Made by a program: the position numbers and the translations under genes. The notes below the pieces were generated by a model. The model did not search any database. It worked only from the letters and a program-made list of their open reading frames with translations, and was not told the origin of the DNA. A stretch of DNA of 63,766 nucleotides from contig NZ_MUBA01000065.1 in NCBI RefSeq assembly GCF_002154575.1, forward strand, positions 1 through 63,766. The letters run 5' to 3'. Positions 12,632 through 59,871 of this stretch are shown one piece after another (position 1 is the stretch's first letter; every line of letters begins with the position of its first letter). Source of the stretch: Streptomyces bobili. Its GTDB lineage: Bacteria; Actinomycetota; Actinomycetes; Streptomycetales; Streptomycetaceae.

Positions 12632-14752
12632 TCAAGCCGTTCGCGGGGCAGGGGCCCTCGGGGCTGGAGGATCGAGCCGTGCGATGAGGGTACGGCAGAC
12701 CCGCTGGACTTCCTCGTCGTGGTCGATGCTCTGGAACCTGCCGCCGCGTCGGGGCTGGGCCAGTTGCTCGCGGAGCAGGGGCAGGGCCGGTGCCGCGAGT
12801 GGACCCATGCGGTCCAGACAGGCCACAACGTGATTGGCCGTCGCCGAGTTCTCGGCCATGGCCTGCAGCTGGGCGTTCAGGACGGCCGGTGCCTCGGCCT
12901 CGCCGCCGACCTCCCAGAGCGCGGCTGCGCAGTGCACCCGGACCCATTCGTATGCGTGCGTCAGGAGGTTACGCAGTCGCGGCAGTGCGATGGAGGCGGG
13001 CGGGCCGATCTCGCCGAGCAGATCAGCCGCATCACTGATCCGGAAGGTGATGCGGTCGTCGAGGAGGTGGAGGAGGAGGGGTAGGACCTCGGCCAGGTCG
13101 CCGTCGACGGCCCACAGCGCGGCTACAGCGGCAGGACGGACGTGCGCGTCGATGGCGGTGGTCAGCGACCGGATCGTGTCCCTTGCGCCGGTTGCCGCCG
13201 GGCCGAACGCACCCAGTGCCTTCAGGGCTGATCGCGTGACGCTGTGCTGTTCATGACGCACCGCGGCGCCGAGCGTAGCCACCACCACGGGAACCGCGGC
13301 CGGGTCACCGAGCGCAGTCAGGGCGGCAAGAATCGCGTTGGCGCTCATCTCGTTCCACTGCTGGGAGAGATCAATGCGGCGCAAATGGTCGCAGAGCCGG
13401 GGCACCAACTGGTCGGCCGCCTGCGGCAGATGCCCTGCGACCTGGATCGCACGCCAGGCGTCGACGTCGTCGTCCAGCGCGGCCAGCAGACTCGGCAGCG
13501 CGCGTACGTCGCCGAGGCGCGCCAAGGCCTTCACGGCCTCCTGGTGGCTTCTGCACAGCAGCGCCTCGGGGGCCGCCCATACGTGGGGGCCGTGCGCCGC
13601 TCGTTGGGCGTCGATGTGCGCGGCGAGTGCCTCCCGGGCCGGGGCGGCGATCGGGTGGCAGGACTCCAGAACAGCTGCGGTCTCGGCGGCAACCTCCTGG
13701 TCGGCTGTGGTGAGCTGGTCGGCGAGCAGCAGGAGGAGCCGGGTGTGGTCCCCGCGCCAGGTGCGTATCAGTTCCCCGCTCATCCGGACCGCGTCCAGGC
13801 GCGAGCCGGGGTCGGGGCTGCTCAGCTGCTCGGCCAGCAGCGCAGTGCGCTCGGGCACCCGGGCGCCCAGGACTTCGTGGAACGTCCGCAGCAGGGCCGT
13901 GGTCGGTGCGTGCACGCGCGTATGCCGGTCGAGTTCTTCGAAGGCGGCGACGGTCTGGGGCGCAACTGTGTCCGTGGGTGCCGCCGGGCGGCTGGGGGCC
14001 GGTGCGACGGGCCGCACGGGTAGGGTGCGGGCACTCTGGCGCAGCAGGCCGACGGCAGCCGGCACGGCATCCTCGCCGATCTCCGGGACGCAGCGGGCCC
14101 GCTGGACCAGGGCCGCGAGCCGGATCGCCGGGCCCTGAGCCTGGTCGGCGGCGAGCCCGGCGAGCCAGCCCGTCACCGGTTGCGTGGCCGCCGGGAGGCG
14201 CAGTGCCAGGGTGGCCGCCGCCTCCACGATCCGCAGCCGCGCCGCGATACCTTCCTCGGCGGCCAGCCGCTCGCGCAGCACCGCGGCGGCTCGGCAGGCG
14301 TCATCGAGGAAGAGCCCGAGCCCGGGAATCGCGGCCAGGCGCACGTCCAGGTCGGGATCGAAGGCGAGTTCGGCGAACTGCCCACCCCGCTCGCGCAGAA
14401 AGGCGACGGCCTGCGCGCAGCCCATCGGCGGGTAGTACTCGATCTCGGTGCCGTCGTCCTCGAAGCCCACCTCCAAGGCCTCCCGGCCAATGCTGACCAG
14501 CAGCGCGACGACAGCGGCCCGCTCAGGCGTGGCGCCGTCGGCGGCCAACTCGAACAGGAAGGGCACGCTGGCCGCCGTCGCCGGGTACACGCTGCCCTGG
14601 TGGTGAACCGCGCCGTAGAAGCGGTCGAGGGCCGTGTGGCGTTCCTCGGTGTCCGGGGAACGCAGCGCCCACAGCAGCGCCGGCACCTCCTCGGCCGAAC
14701 CGTACGCGTGCTCCATCGAAGCCCAGTCGATGCCATGAAGTCCGTCAAACAT
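12632..14752 (-). CDS. HEAT-repeat protein
   Basis: A protein of about 706 residues made of HEAT/PBS-lyase-type helical repeats, for example DLDVRLAAIPGLG, SRLDAVRMSGELI, LARLGDVRALPSLLAAL and IALPRLRNLLTHAYEWVRVH. Such solenoids act as protein-binding scaffolds. I start at the ATG at 14752 (MFDGLHGIDWASMEHAYGSA) because this opening, with its YGSAEEVPALLWALRS segment, matches the beginning I know from similar Streptomyces proteins; an ATG 15 bases upstream is an alternative. No transmembrane segment or enzyme motif is visible. Function unknown. Confidence 0.75.
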   Translation of the reverse strand: MFDGLHGIDWASMEHAYGSAEEVPALLWALRSPDTEERHTALDRFYGAVHHQGSVYPATAASVPFLFELAADGATPERAAVVALLVSIGREALEVGFEDDGTEIEYYPPMGCAQAVAFLRERGGQFAELAFDPDLDVRLAAIPGLGLFLDDACRAAAVLRERLAAEEGIAARLRIVEAAATLALRLPAATQPVTGWLAGLAADQAQGPAIRLAALVQRARCVPEIGEDAVPAAVGLLRQSARTLPVRPVAPAPSRPAAPTDTVAPQTVAAFEELDRHTRVHAPTTALLRTFHEVLGARVPERTALLAEQLSSPDPGSRLDAVRMSGELIRTWRGDHTRLLLLLADQLTTADQEVAAETAAVLESCHPIAAPAREALAAHIDAQRAAHGPHVWAAPEALLCRSHQEAVKALARLGDVRALPSLLAALDDDVDAWRAIQVAGHLPQAADQLVPRLCDHLRRIDLSQQWNEMSANAILAALTALGDPAAVPVVVATLGAAVRHEQHSVTRSALKALGAFGPAATGARDTIRSLTTAIDAHVRPAAVAALWAVDGDLAEVLPLLLHLLDDRITFRISDAADLLGEIGPPASIALPRLRNLLTHAYEWVRVHCAAALWEVGGEAEAPAVLNAQLQAMAENSATANHVVACLDRMGPLAAPALPLLREQLAQPRRGGRFQSIDHDEEVQRVCRTLIARLDPPAPRAPAPRTA

Positions 14753-17489: not shown

Positions 17490-17940
17490 CCCGACCCCTC
17501 GATGGCCATCTTGCTTGCCTTGTAGACGGCCGAGAGCAGCATGTGGTCCAGCACCACGCTGGAGGTCACGTTGACCACCACGCCGGAGCCGCGCTCGCGG
17601 AACTGGGGCAGCACGCCTGCGTCGTCGCCATCACGCCGAACGTGTTGGTTTCGAAGACTTCCCGCACTCGGGCCATGGGGGTGCCCTCGAACACGCTGAT
17701 CGATGAGACGCCCGCGTTGTCGACCAGGACGTCGATGGGCCCGGCCGCCTCGAACGCGGCGGTGATGGTCTGGGGCTTGGTCACGTCGAGCTCGACGACG
17801 CGGAGCCGGTCCGACTCGGGCAGGACGCCCGCACTCGCTGTGCGCATCGTGGCGATGACGTTCCACCCCTGCGAGTGGAAGTACAGGGCGGTCTCCCGTC
17901 CGTATCCGGATGAGGCACCAGTGATCAGAACTGTCTTCAT
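17490..17940 (-). pseudogene. Short-chain dehydrogenase, truncated and frameshifted
   Basis: From the ATG at 17940, MKTVLITGASSGYGRETALY carries the NAD(P) motif TGASSGYG and VDNAGVSSISVFEGTPMARV. Near 17620 the frame shifts, and LPQFRERGSGVVVNVTSSVV then AVYKASKMAIEG (the YxxxK region) is in a second frame. Similarity ends at about 17490, losing the C-terminal third. It lies just downstream of the truncated IS1380 copy, whose insertion or deletion probably accompanied the damage. Confidence 0.7.
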
Positions 17941-34347: not shown

Positions 34348-35079
34348 GTGCCGAAGTTGAATCAGATCATCGCAGTCGAAAAGGGCGTCAAGTCCAAGGC
34401 TCTTCAGGAGCTCACCCAGGCTCACCAGGACGTGCAGAAGCCCGCTCTGCTGGCCGGCATCTCCCGGACTTATCAGCCCAAGGACGAGGAGGGCGAGCAG
34501 TTGCCGCCCGAGTCCACGCGGGTGCAGATCAAGGCCGAGGACGCTCTGCGGGCGACCGCCGGGACGCTGACGCGGCTCTTCGACGTGACCGCGACGAAGG
34601 ACTGGGCGAACCGGTCCGCGGTCGCGGACGTGGTGGTCGACGGTGCGGTGCTGCTGCCCCAGGTGCCCGTCCCGTACCTGTTGTTCCTGGAGAAGCAACT
34701 CACCGACCTGCACACGTTCGTGCGCAAGCTGCCAGTGCTCGACGCCTCGGAGTCGTGGAACCTGGACCCCTCGACGGACTCGTGGAAGACGGACCCGGTG
34801 CGGACCATCCGCACGAAGAAGGTTCCGCGCAACCACGTGAAGGCTGAGGCCACGGAGAAGCACCCGGCGCAGGTCGAGGTGTACTACGAGGACGTCCCGG
34901 TCGGCTACTGGACCACGGTGAAGTTCTCCGGCGCGCTGCCGGCCCGGCGGGTCAACGAGCTCCTCGACCGCGTCGAAAAGCTCCAGCAGTCCGTCAAGTT
35001 CGCTCGCGAGGAGGCGAACAACACAGAGGTCACCGACCAGCGGGTCGGCGACGCGGTATTCGGCTACCTCTTCCGGTAG
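34348..35079 (+). CDS. Conserved actinobacterial protein of unknown function (DUF7873-like)
   Basis: A 243-residue cytoplasmic protein that I recall only as an uncharacterised conserved family, annotated as DUF7873 if memory is right. Features are LNQIIAVEKGVKSKALQELT, LAGISRTYQPKDEEGEQLPP, FLEKQLTDLHTFVRKLPVLD, DPVRTIRTKKVPRNHVKAEA and a C-terminal coiled-coil-like helix (VNELLDRVEKLQQSVKFARE). There is no enzyme motif. The start is GTG 34348. TAGGTT at 34336-34341 ends six bases before it, so the mRNA is probably leaderless. A hairpin and two permuted tRNA-like sequences follow immediately, and one terminator closes the unit, so protein and RNAs may work together. Confidence 0.75.
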   Translation: MPKLNQIIAVEKGVKSKALQELTQAHQDVQKPALLAGISRTYQPKDEEGEQLPPESTRVQIKAEDALRATAGTLTRLFDVTATKDWANRSAVADVVVDGAVLLPQVPVPYLLFLEKQLTDLHTFVRKLPVLDASESWNLDPSTDSWKTDPVRTIRTKKVPRNHVKAEATEKHPAQVEVYYEDVPVGYWTTVKFSGALPARRVNELLDRVEKLQQSVKFAREEANNTEVTDQRVGDAVFGYLFR

Positions 35080-35090
35080 CCCCACACACG

Positions 35091-35111
35091 CCCTCCGTCG
35101 CGAGCGGAGGG
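35091..35111 (+). terminator. Hairpin between the DUF gene and the tRNA-like pair
   Basis: CCCTCCG and CGGAGGG form a 7-base-pair stem with a TCGCGAG loop, starting 11 bases after the stop codon. It could attenuate transcription, or serve as a processing site separating the mRNA from the RNA part. Confidence 0.5.
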
Positions 35112-35154
35112 TGCGCGATGAGCGCAAGCTGAAACTGATGTTGAAGCTGATGAA

Positions 35155-35231
35155 GGGGTGTCAGTTGGGGGTTCGAATCCCTCTCCCCGCACCACGTGCG
35201 GGGGTGGCCCAAGCCTGGCAGAGGCGGCCCC
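35155..35231 (+). tRNA. Circularly permuted tRNA-like gene X (3' half before 5' half)
   Basis: Read in permuted order, this is a full cloverleaf. The 3' half comes first: anticodon-stem strand GGGGT (35155-35159), variable GTCAGTT, T stem GGGGG, T loop TTCGAAT, CCCTC, acceptor strand TCCCCGC (35184-35190), discriminator A and CCA (35192-35194). After a 3-base spacer CGT comes the 5' half: acceptor GCGGGGG (35198-35204), T8, D stem GCC/GGC with GG and A21 in the loop, then anticodon strand GCCCC (35227-35231). All 20 stem pairs form, three as G-U. The anticodon loop is split between the two outer ends, GTGAAAC... and ...GATGAA. Joining could give GAG (Leu), GAA (Phe) or GTG (His). In linear RNA the acceptor end is a small closed loop. 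Confidence 0.6.
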
Positions 35232-35304
35232 GTGAAACTCAGATTCTCGCTCCAGTCTCCGTATTCGCCGCCGAACACCGGATCGACCGAGCGTGGGCGA
35301 ACAT

Positions 35305-35374
35305 CGACGGATGGGGGTTCAAGTCCCCTCGGCGCCTCTTTCGTGGCGCTGTAGTTCAAAGGCAGAACACGTCG
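35305..35374 (+). tRNA. Circularly permuted tRNA-like gene Y (3' half before 5' half)
   Basis: The permuted layout of the upstream copy is repeated. 3' half: anticodon strand CGACG (35305-35309), variable GAT, T arm GGGGG TTCAAGT CCCCT, acceptor strand CGGCGCC (35330-35336), discriminator T, then CTT rather than CCA. 5' half: acceptor GGCGCTG (35345-35351), T8 A9, D arm GTTC AAAGGCA GAAC, A26, anticodon strand CGTCG (35370-35374). All 21 stem pairs form, two as G-U, and the anticodon stem is fully Watson-Crick. The split loop (ATCTCA... and ...ACAT) joins most simply as ATCTCAT, anticodon CTC. The D arm and U73 look glycine-like, which conflicts with a Glu anticodon. No continuous tRNA reading fits. 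Confidence 0.6.
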
Positions 35375-35433
35375 ATCTCAATATGACCCGCGGCTCTTAA
35401 ACGCCGCCGGTGTGCGCAAATGGGTGGCAAGCT

Positions 35434-35466
35434 GGAGCCCGGGAGCTGGACATGCTCCCGGGCTCC
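35434..35466 (+). terminator. Strong hairpin ending the tRNA-like transcription unit
   Basis: GGAGCCCGGGAGC and GCTCCCGGGCTCC form a perfect 13-base-pair stem with a 7-base loop (TGGACAT), 60 bases after the second permuted element. It is a clear terminator structure for the unit starting at 34348. Confidence 0.75.
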
Positions 35467-35699
35467 GTCACGTTCCGGCCCGCGGCTCGTGCTGTTACCG
35501 GGAAGGTTCACCGGGTTCAGTGGTCAGGCCCCCGCGGGTAGGGGTCTGCCACCCCCAGCGGAGGCTACCTCCGCTGCGGATTCGGGCACGTTCGCGTCGT
35601 TGGGCGGCCAGAACGTCGGGGTGGCGGGCGTTCTGGTTGCGCCGTCCGACAGCCGCCCTGCTGCCACTTCGTTGGCGGGAAAGGCCAGTCCCTCAACCG

Positions 35700-59031: not shown

Positions 59032-59871
59032 TCACGGGGTGAGCTGTTGTTGTCCTATGACCGAGAGCAGTTCGAGTTTGCTGTGGCTCTCCGTGCCGGG
59101 GCGAGTGGTCAGGACCACCAGGGTCTGGGCGCGGTTCTCGGTGTACAGGAGCTGGGCGTCGACGTCGATGCGGCCGAGTTCCGGATGGAGAAGGGTCTTG
59201 CAGTCGTCGTAGAGTTGCGCGACCTCCTGCAGTTCCCACATGCGGACGAACTCGGGGCTGTGTTCCTGGAGTTCGGCGAGGATCCGGGCGGCTCGGGGAG
59301 TGTCGCTGCCGGCTGTGAGCGCGGCCCGCAGGCGCGCCGCATGGGCACGGCCGTGGTGTTCGTGAACCTCATCGGGATACACCAGCCGCTCGGCGGGATC
59401 CATGAACCAACGGTAGTAACCGCTACTGGCCAGACCTGTATGGCGGGCCTGGTCGCCGAGCAGCGCGACGGCCAGCGGGTTCATCGCGAGGGTGTCGAGC
59501 AGGTCGGTCTGCACCAGGGCCGGTGAGTCGTCCAGGCGGTCCAGGACCCGCATCAGCGTCGGGCTGACATGCTCGGAGCGGTGGAAGCGGGCCGGGGCGT
59601 TGTGGCCGATGAGGACGAAGAGGTGGTCGCGTTCGTCCAGGGTCAGCCGCAGTGCCCGTGCCAGAGCCGTGGTGATCTGTACGGAGGGCTGCGGAGCACG
59701 CTGCTGTTCCAGCCGGGCGTAGTAGTCGGTGGACATGCCGGCGAGCTGCGCGACCTCCTCGCGGCGCAGCCCCTGCGTACGCCTGCGCGGCCCCTCGACC
59801 AGCCCGACATCGCGGGGGCGCAGCGTCTCACGCCGGCGACGCAAGAATTCCGCCAGTTCCCTCTTGTCCAT
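59032..59871 (-). CDS. XRE-family regulator with MmyB-like ligand domain
   Basis: A 279-residue regulator. HTH: DKRELAEFLRRRRETLRPRD, RRRTQGLRREEVAQLAGMST and YYARLEQQRAPQPSVQITTA. The MmyB-type domain has DLLDTLAMNPLAVALLGDQA, YYRWFMDPAERLVYPDEVHE and TRPGTESHSKLELLSVIGQQ. I choose the ATG at 59871 (an ATG nine bases earlier is possible); the longer reading crosses a heptamer repeat. Such regulators usually control a neighbouring SDR gene, here 60178-60927, upstream on the same strand. Confidence 0.88.
   Translation of the reverse strand: MDKRELAEFLRRRRETLRPRDVGLVEGPRRRTQGLRREEVAQLAGMSTDYYARLEQQRAPQPSVQITTALARALRLTLDERDHLFVLIGHNAPARFHRSEHVSPTLMRVLDRLDDSPALVQTDLLDTLAMNPLAVALLGDQARHTGLASSGYYRWFMDPAERLVYPDEVHEHHGRAHAARLRAALTAGSDTPRAARILAELQEHSPEFVRMWELQEVAQLYDDCKTLLHPELGRIDVDAQLLYTENRAQTLVVLTTRPGTESHSKLELLSVIGQQQLTP

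Follow-up and report, generated by a model that had tools for sequence, protein, structure and literature searches.

Two permuted tRNA-like arms in a predicted structured RNA encoded behind DUF7873 genes of actinobacteria and phages

Two permuted tRNA-like folds behind a DUF7873 gene

The DNA analyzed here, referred to as the window, comprises 63,766 nucleotides (nt) of the forward strand of contig NZ_MUBA01000065.1 from Streptomyces bobili (GCF_002154575.1). It contains a gene on the plus strand (34348–35079, GTG start) that encodes a 243-residue DUF7873 protein (PF25283, E 1.4e-120, 402 bits; Pfam gathering score, 27). Behind this gene, on the same strand, lie two permuted transfer RNA (tRNA)-like folds, X (35155–35231) and Y (35305–35374). 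The original prediction described them as two tandem circularly permuted tRNA-like genes. A scanner requiring the order 3′ half, linker, 5′ half, a TTCRA T-loop and four stems identified both folds at exactly these positions, with scores of 38.6 for X and 39.6 for Y, whereas the top score among 40 dinucleotide shuffles of the window was 34.8. The two folds are thus confirmed to the base. A single further match on either strand of the window was weaker (59052–59132, score 33.2). ARAGORN found no linear tRNA at X or Y, in agreement with the claim that no linear reading works there; the sole tRNA in the window is a tRNA-Ser at 17716. In Rfam 15, no family reached its gathering score at X and Y or elsewhere on the RNA described below.

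The segments of X follow the order anticodon 3′ strand (GGGGT), variable region, T arm (GGGGG-TTCGAAT-CCCTC), acceptor 3′ strand (TCCCCGC), A73-CCA, CGT, acceptor 5′ strand (GCGGGGG), D arm, and anticodon 5′ strand (GCCCC). The corresponding elements of Y are CGACG, GGGGG-TTCAAGT-CCCCT, CGGCGCC, TCTTTCGT, which caps the acceptor, GGCGCTG, a D arm with the stem GTTC/GAAC, and CGTCG. Both assignments are supported by the scanner, by covariation and by subthreshold matches to the model of the bacterial Y RNA YrlA; that of Y is further supported by a covariance model of the Y arm (R1), built from 80 Streptomyces sequences only, which scores the window’s Y, one of its training members, at 105.8 bits.

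Linkage to DUF7873 in actinobacteria and phages

Matches to DUF7873 were present in 94 of 199 Streptomyces genomes. The scanner detected the permuted fold in the 3′ flanks of 92 of the 94 (two folds in 61, one in 31), compared with 2 of 1880 shuffled flanks. One of the two negative loci (L101) has a partial DUF7873 match, which set the start of its flank too far downstream, and its RNA is recovered by R1 at 88.5 bits; the other (L102) is a 27-residue DUF7873 match without the RNA. R1 scored at least 68.8 bits in 93 of the 199 genomes, with the next best match at 50.2 bits, and in all 93 the Y arm lies 32–359 nt 3′ of the DUF7873 match on the same contig and strand. The sole DUF7873 match without the RNA among the 94 (genome G066) spans 27 residues with an E value of 7.9e-4. 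Because most of the 93 genomes contributed to the training set, the informative results are the absence of a match of this strength from every other genome of the 199 and the behavior of new loci. In this respect, all 55 actinobacterial loci not used for training were R1-positive directly behind DUF7873, at 56.1–101 bits; 54 are from other genera, such as Nonomuraea, Streptosporangium, Actinomadura, Nocardia, Embleya and Actinacidiphila, and one is from Streptomyces (L227).

The scanner gave similar results at the loci from GTDB genomes, where 78 of 80 DUF7873 3′ flanks were positive compared with 7 of 1600 shuffled flanks. For these 80 loci together with nine viral ones, upstream flanks were positive in 1 of 89 cases and the opposite strand in none of 89. 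R1 was run on 61 of these 89 later loci, a set that leaves out 25 Streptomyces loci and L253, L254 and L256. Three scanner-negative loci (L206, L212 and L257) were R1-positive, and L259 was positive by the scanner only. The loci are not fully independent, as some GTDB loci are genomes of the 199-genome set (e.g., L233 and L237), and L110/L111 and L112/L124 are near-duplicates.

Public data contain at least 7560 relatives of the DUF7873 protein, as counted from the best 7998 candidates scored. The structure of DUF7873 is predicted with confidence (predicted local distance difference test score, 93.3); the predicted model had no PDB match at an E value of 0.001, and no PHROG was found. In Nonomuraea turkmeniaca, DUF7873 and the RNA occur in two copies on different contigs (L196 and L207). 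The 160-kb plasmid NZ_CP128847.1 of Streptomyces flavofungini carries a DUF7873 gene that is 99.2% identical to that of the window (L136) and adjoins IS630 and IS5 transposases. The plasmid copy beside these transposases suggests that the DUF7873 locus is mobile.

DUF7873 relatives were also found in 69 of 50,697 phage records. The hosts of these phages are unrelated, and the phages include Arthrobacter phage Racecar, Gordonia phage Phendrix, Rhodococcus phage NiceHouse, Pseudanabaena phage Pam2, Klebsiella phage KpLz-2_45, Rhizobium phage RHph_TM30 and Vibrio phage D505; DUF7873 loci from IMG/VR were added in sets of 18 and 9. Of 27 viral loci, 23 had an R1 match behind the DUF7873 gene, as did the Nonomuraea locus. 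R1 missed L133 and L135, gave 18.3 bits at L121, and at L132 matched ~2.1 kb behind the gene. The scanner was positive at 25 of 28 loci (27 viral and one from Nonomuraea; shuffled flanks, 2 of 560) and at 8 of 9 further viral loci (shuffled flanks, 0 of 180). Its negative phage loci are L132, L113 and L121, of which L113 shows X and Y by eye. The letters of the phage stems differ from those of Streptomyces, yet the stems close: the Klebsiella phage has TCTGCCT/AGGCAGA as the acceptor of Y, and the cyanophage has CTCGCCC/GGGCGAG.

Ordinary tRNA genes were present in the fetched flanks of 16 of 36 viral loci (96 tRNAs in total), with 20 lacking them, and in those of 7 of 80 genome loci; among the viral loci, the number reaches its maximum of 20 in phage Phendrix. 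Rfam searches of eight phage loci returned only tRNA models and one transfer-messenger RNA (tmRNA), and none on the X/Y RNA. The tRNA array of Phendrix (MN096369.1, L128) contains a tmRNA-like gene at 1072–1600 (RF00023, 89 bits; gathering score, 47), where the record annotates no tmRNA.

Compensatory evolution and the two-arm architecture

When 80 distinct Y regions from Streptomyces were aligned by sequence only, the T, acceptor and D stems of Y were paired in 99.4–99.5% of cells, and changes on both sides occurred at 15 of 21 pairs in all. The covariation score was 0.446, compared with at most 0.140 when the partner was slid. The anticodon stem was paired in 60.8% of cells of the same alignment, where the variable regions of two subgroups are offset by a single base; by subgroup, it was paired in 99.1% (n = 44) and 98.9% (n = 36), counts that lean towards pairing because the subgroups were assigned by the scanner. 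For X, 49 sequences gave a covariation score of 0.257 compared with at most 0.122 when slid, with changes in the acceptor, T and anticodon stems. The D stem of X is invariant and hence uninformative on covariation. Further pair types in X did not exceed column shuffles (314 of 500 equally high), a control that ignores the relatedness of the sequences. Covariation was therefore seen for both arms when homologous loci were checked for compensatory changes in the acceptor and anticodon stems, as the original prediction had proposed.

These compensatory changes refute the reading of the locus as debris of a tandem tRNA array. Tandem tRNA genes likewise read as a 3′ half followed by a 5′ half, but such debris would not account for the conservation and covariation across genera or for a shared core, and no intact tRNA flanks the window’s locus; we consider the chance that X and Y are debris to be vanishingly small.

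The folds are part of a larger predicted noncoding RNA of ~375 nt on the plus strand, placed approximately at 35091–35466 with ends inferred from structure. Its consensus fold, obtained from 43 sequences less than 90% alike, consists of two irregular stems, A and B, with one tRNA-like arm on each, plus a 3′ hairpin. Overall, 91.5% of cells were paired, with both-side changes in 79 of 107 pairs, whereas slid controls were paired in 34.7–42.5%; since the fold was derived from the alignment that was also used to score pairing, the counts for the core lean towards the fold. Stem A (35128–35150 with 35239–35262, spanning 35128–35262) bears arm X. Its two helices were paired in 93.3% and 86.0% of cells, compared with 25–39% when slid by one, and compensatory cells are few (5 and 8). 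Stem B (35267–35298 with 35386–35428, spanning 35267–35428) bears arm Y and has three helices, paired in 94.2%, 95.3% and 86.7% of cells, with 19, 23 and 50 compensatory cells. Upstream of stem A lie a small conserved hairpin of the form GCGC-loop-GCGC (35113–35125, 93.8% paired in the 43 sequences) and a variable 5′ hairpin, CCCTCCG/CGGAGGG (35091–35111), which was assigned by eye from the sequence because the alignment-based helix is offset here. The 3′ hairpin (35434–35466), an inverted repeat with a 13-bp stem, has GGACAT in its loop. It is terminator-like, without a T run in the window, and the loop is of the GGAYAY type in relatives; a hairpin around a GGATAY-like loop was present in 99 of 117 loci. 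The anticodon stems of X and Y extend into the conserved core helices, and there is no anticodon loop.

X and Y are thus arms of one predicted conserved structured RNA rather than separate genes, and the description as two tandem genes proves too narrow, in that both lie inside one larger predicted RNA with a constant neighbor gene. This RNA would be transcribed, probably together with DUF7873; no promoter-like site was found for it.

The two arms differ in their constancy. The scanner scored Y in all 92 of the scanner-positive Streptomyces loci, whereas a tRNA-like X was present in 63 of these and absent in 29. Among the 31 single-match Streptomyces loci, 26 have in place of X a stretch of 39–63 nt that folds into hairpins and lacks a T loop. 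In the others, L092 has only 17 nt at the position of X, and X was missed by the scanner in L052 and L100; L093 and L095 carry a different structured insert of ~150 nt in place of arm X. The linker of X has only 4 bases in 8 of 77 cases.

The position of the RNA also fits a cis-acting 3′ untranslated region, through which DUF7873 would bind its own messenger RNA, with the tRNA-like folds merely stabilizing the transcript or marking it for processing. The distance of 32–359 nt behind the DUF7873 match on the same strand and the presence of the 3′ hairpin are what such a region would show. However, two full tRNA elbows kept by compensatory change across phages and many bacterial genera exceed what a stabilizer needs, and another gene comes before the best model match (31.6 bits) in Microcoleus phage My-WqHQDG. 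We regard this alternative as unlikely.

Known tRNA-like RNAs and a proposed function

According to PMC3978253, the permuted tRNA genes known so far are believed to undergo splicing at a bulge-helix-bulge, with a circular intermediate in algae, to yield mature tRNAs, and the two such genes of the archaeon Thermofilum pendens encode CCA. As in the permuted genes of algae and T. pendens, the 3′ half precedes the 5′ half at X and Y, and all tRNA stems can be closed. Unlike in those genes, the anticodon stem belongs to a larger fold and the genome lacks an endonuclease match: a search for the tRNA-splicing endonuclease family PF01974 gave no match in the window genome (completeness 96.5%), while the same search on control genomes gave matches in 4 of 14, all archaeal. 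No group I or group II intron family was among the matches listed over 35060–35560, even at E values up to 10. Two fates had been envisaged for the RNA. Circularization and rejoining in the anticodon loop is not supported, in view of stems that run into the core, the loss of X, its 4-base linkers, and the negative endonuclease and intron searches. The other fate, that of a stable tRNA mimic with its opening at the anticodon, finds support. Since these stems enter the core, X is dispensable and no endonuclease was matched, we take X and Y to be tRNA mimics rather than genes awaiting circularization. Separately, RtcB of the window genome is in two pieces near contig starts (C372:65–817 and C555:55–309), not linked to the RNA locus; this split is probably an assembly break.

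X and Y could instead be genuine permuted tRNA genes or tmRNA-like acceptor domains, from which RNase P and 3′ trimming would remove the linker to leave chargeable arms. An acceptor stem plus a T arm is an RNase P recognition element, and two-piece tmRNA has a permuted acceptor domain with a removable linker. Most directly, 31 of 165 distinct arms, including the window’s X, encode a base followed by CCA after the 3′ acceptor strand, for which chance would give ~1/64; because the arms are related, this excess carries no P value. By arm, the motif was present in 16 of 49 X from Streptomyces and 4 of 15 from others, and in 3 of 80 Y from Streptomyces and 8 of 21 from others. These CCA ends count against the mimic interpretation. 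Nonetheless, most arms lack CCA, Streptomyces Y above all; some X linkers have only 4 bases and X is dispensable; the anticodon stems enter the core without an anticodon loop; and the genome has no PF01974 match. In addition, tmRNA models at the locus scored 10.5 bits (RF04321) and 7.7 and 6.4 bits (RF00023), against a gathering score of 47, with the permuted model accounting for the 10.5 bits. The RNA also differs from two-piece tmRNA in having two domains and canonical D arms, and no conserved tag reading frame was seen by eye in the inspected loci. We read the encoded CCA as a trace of tRNA-gene descent or as a sign of occasional processing; because of it, the permuted-tRNA reading retains a low probability.

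GOLLD and ROOL are large ornate structured RNAs with links to phages and tRNA clusters. The RNA described here resembles them as a large structured RNA linked to phages but differs in that it had no Rfam match at the gathering score in the window.

The closest likeness is to YrlA. In its Rfam structure line, the basal stem leads first to the T arm, then to the acceptor hairpin and the D arm, and back into the basal stem, which is the order of a tRNA mimic opened at the anticodon. The YrlA model (RF02553) aligned at full length to both arms, although well below threshold (Y, 35291–35396, 24.7 bits; X, 35143–35249, 23.3 bits; gathering score, 69). Unlike YrlA, the RNA has two modules within one ~375-nt molecule, other basal stems, and DUF7873 as its neighbor instead of Rsr/TROVE. 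According to PMC8394870 and PMC7790460, the basal stem of YrlA holds Rsr, PNPase is reported to be bound by the tRNA-like module, and a role as a competitive inhibitor against an anticodon nuclease has been suggested. Y RNAs are mentioned for phages as well in PMC7765460 and PMC12282133. By this resemblance, the arms may act like the YrlA module.

The locus might accordingly be thought to encode an ordinary bacterial Y RNA with two YrlA modules, bound by an Rsr/TROVE protein encoded elsewhere. The module order and the full-length subthreshold matches agree with this, and the window genome has a TROVE match, on a contig other than that of DUF7873. Across the 199 genomes, however, DUF7873 and TROVE are distributed independently (both, 49; DUF7873 only, 45; TROVE only, 46; neither, 59; Fisher P = 0.26). 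No genome of the 199 passed the RF02553 gathering score; the best YrlA matches in Streptomyces (up to 60.8 bits, the best of the TROVE-linked candidates) lie ~1 kb from TROVE genes in many genomes, and among the matches listed, of ~40 bits or more, none is at a DUF7873 locus. The tRNA-like part of R1 also matches, at 45–50 bits, 1.1–1.2 kb from TROVE genes (e.g., in genomes G033, G077, G051 and G141), where YrlA-like RNAs are expected. The constant neighbor of the RNA is DUF7873. Because this protein differs and the module is doubled, the RNA is not established as a Y RNA, and an ordinary, Rsr-bound Y RNA has a small but real chance of being the correct account.

The same searches recorded other YrlA-like candidates. 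The window genome has a separate match at C251 12153–12257 (40.5 bits), ~0.9 kb from the TROVE match at 13140–13322. The pairing recurs in other Streptomyces, and genome G039 has two matches in a row (C16:71531 and 71764). YrlA model matches of ~41 bits at a spacing of 78 nt (G106:C1:141430–141698 and similar) are as tandem tRNA genes would give; as read from the spacing, such tandem rows probably give rise to false Y RNA calls among actinobacteria.

Based on these findings, we propose a plausible function for the two tRNA-shaped arms on a core behind DUF7873. DUF7873 would bind the folded core of the RNA. The arms reproduce a tRNA acceptor stem and elbow but have their opening at the anticodon, and would serve as a docking site for an enzyme recognizing the tRNA elbow or acceptor. 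We hold this account, in which DUF7873 likely binds the core, to be reasonably probable. By analogy with YrlA, the particle would most likely serve as a tether in which DUF7873 replaces Rsr and the arms recruit a host enzyme, with PNPase as the first candidate. Because the arms have no anticodon loop, we favor a tether, whose partner would be an elbow- or acceptor-binding enzyme, rather than a decoy for an anticodon nuclease. During phage infection, the same particle would divert the processing of host RNA or tRNA. The RNA would thus likely work as a scaffold that imitates tRNA, much like bacterial Y RNAs, and not as a tRNA. A bolder version, which we consider doubtful, envisages a machine carried by phages and retained in many actinobacteria. 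In it, DUF7873 would display two arms at once, and the arms of many members would open at encoded CCA ends that can be charged or clamped like those of tRNAs; this would be the first bacterial RNA with two permuted tRNA domains.

Our best reading is a new, predicted two-armed, Y-RNA-like ribonucleoprotein common to bacteria and phages. We found no paper on DUF7873 or on this RNA in a search outside of which most subscription papers and preprints fell. The locus pairs a structured RNA family missing from Rfam 15 with a protein of unknown function. Such a pairing would mean that the principle of Y RNAs, in which a handle carries a tRNA mimic, does not depend on Ro60/Rsr, and would offer a defined RNA–protein pair for asking why phages and bacteria make tRNA mimics.
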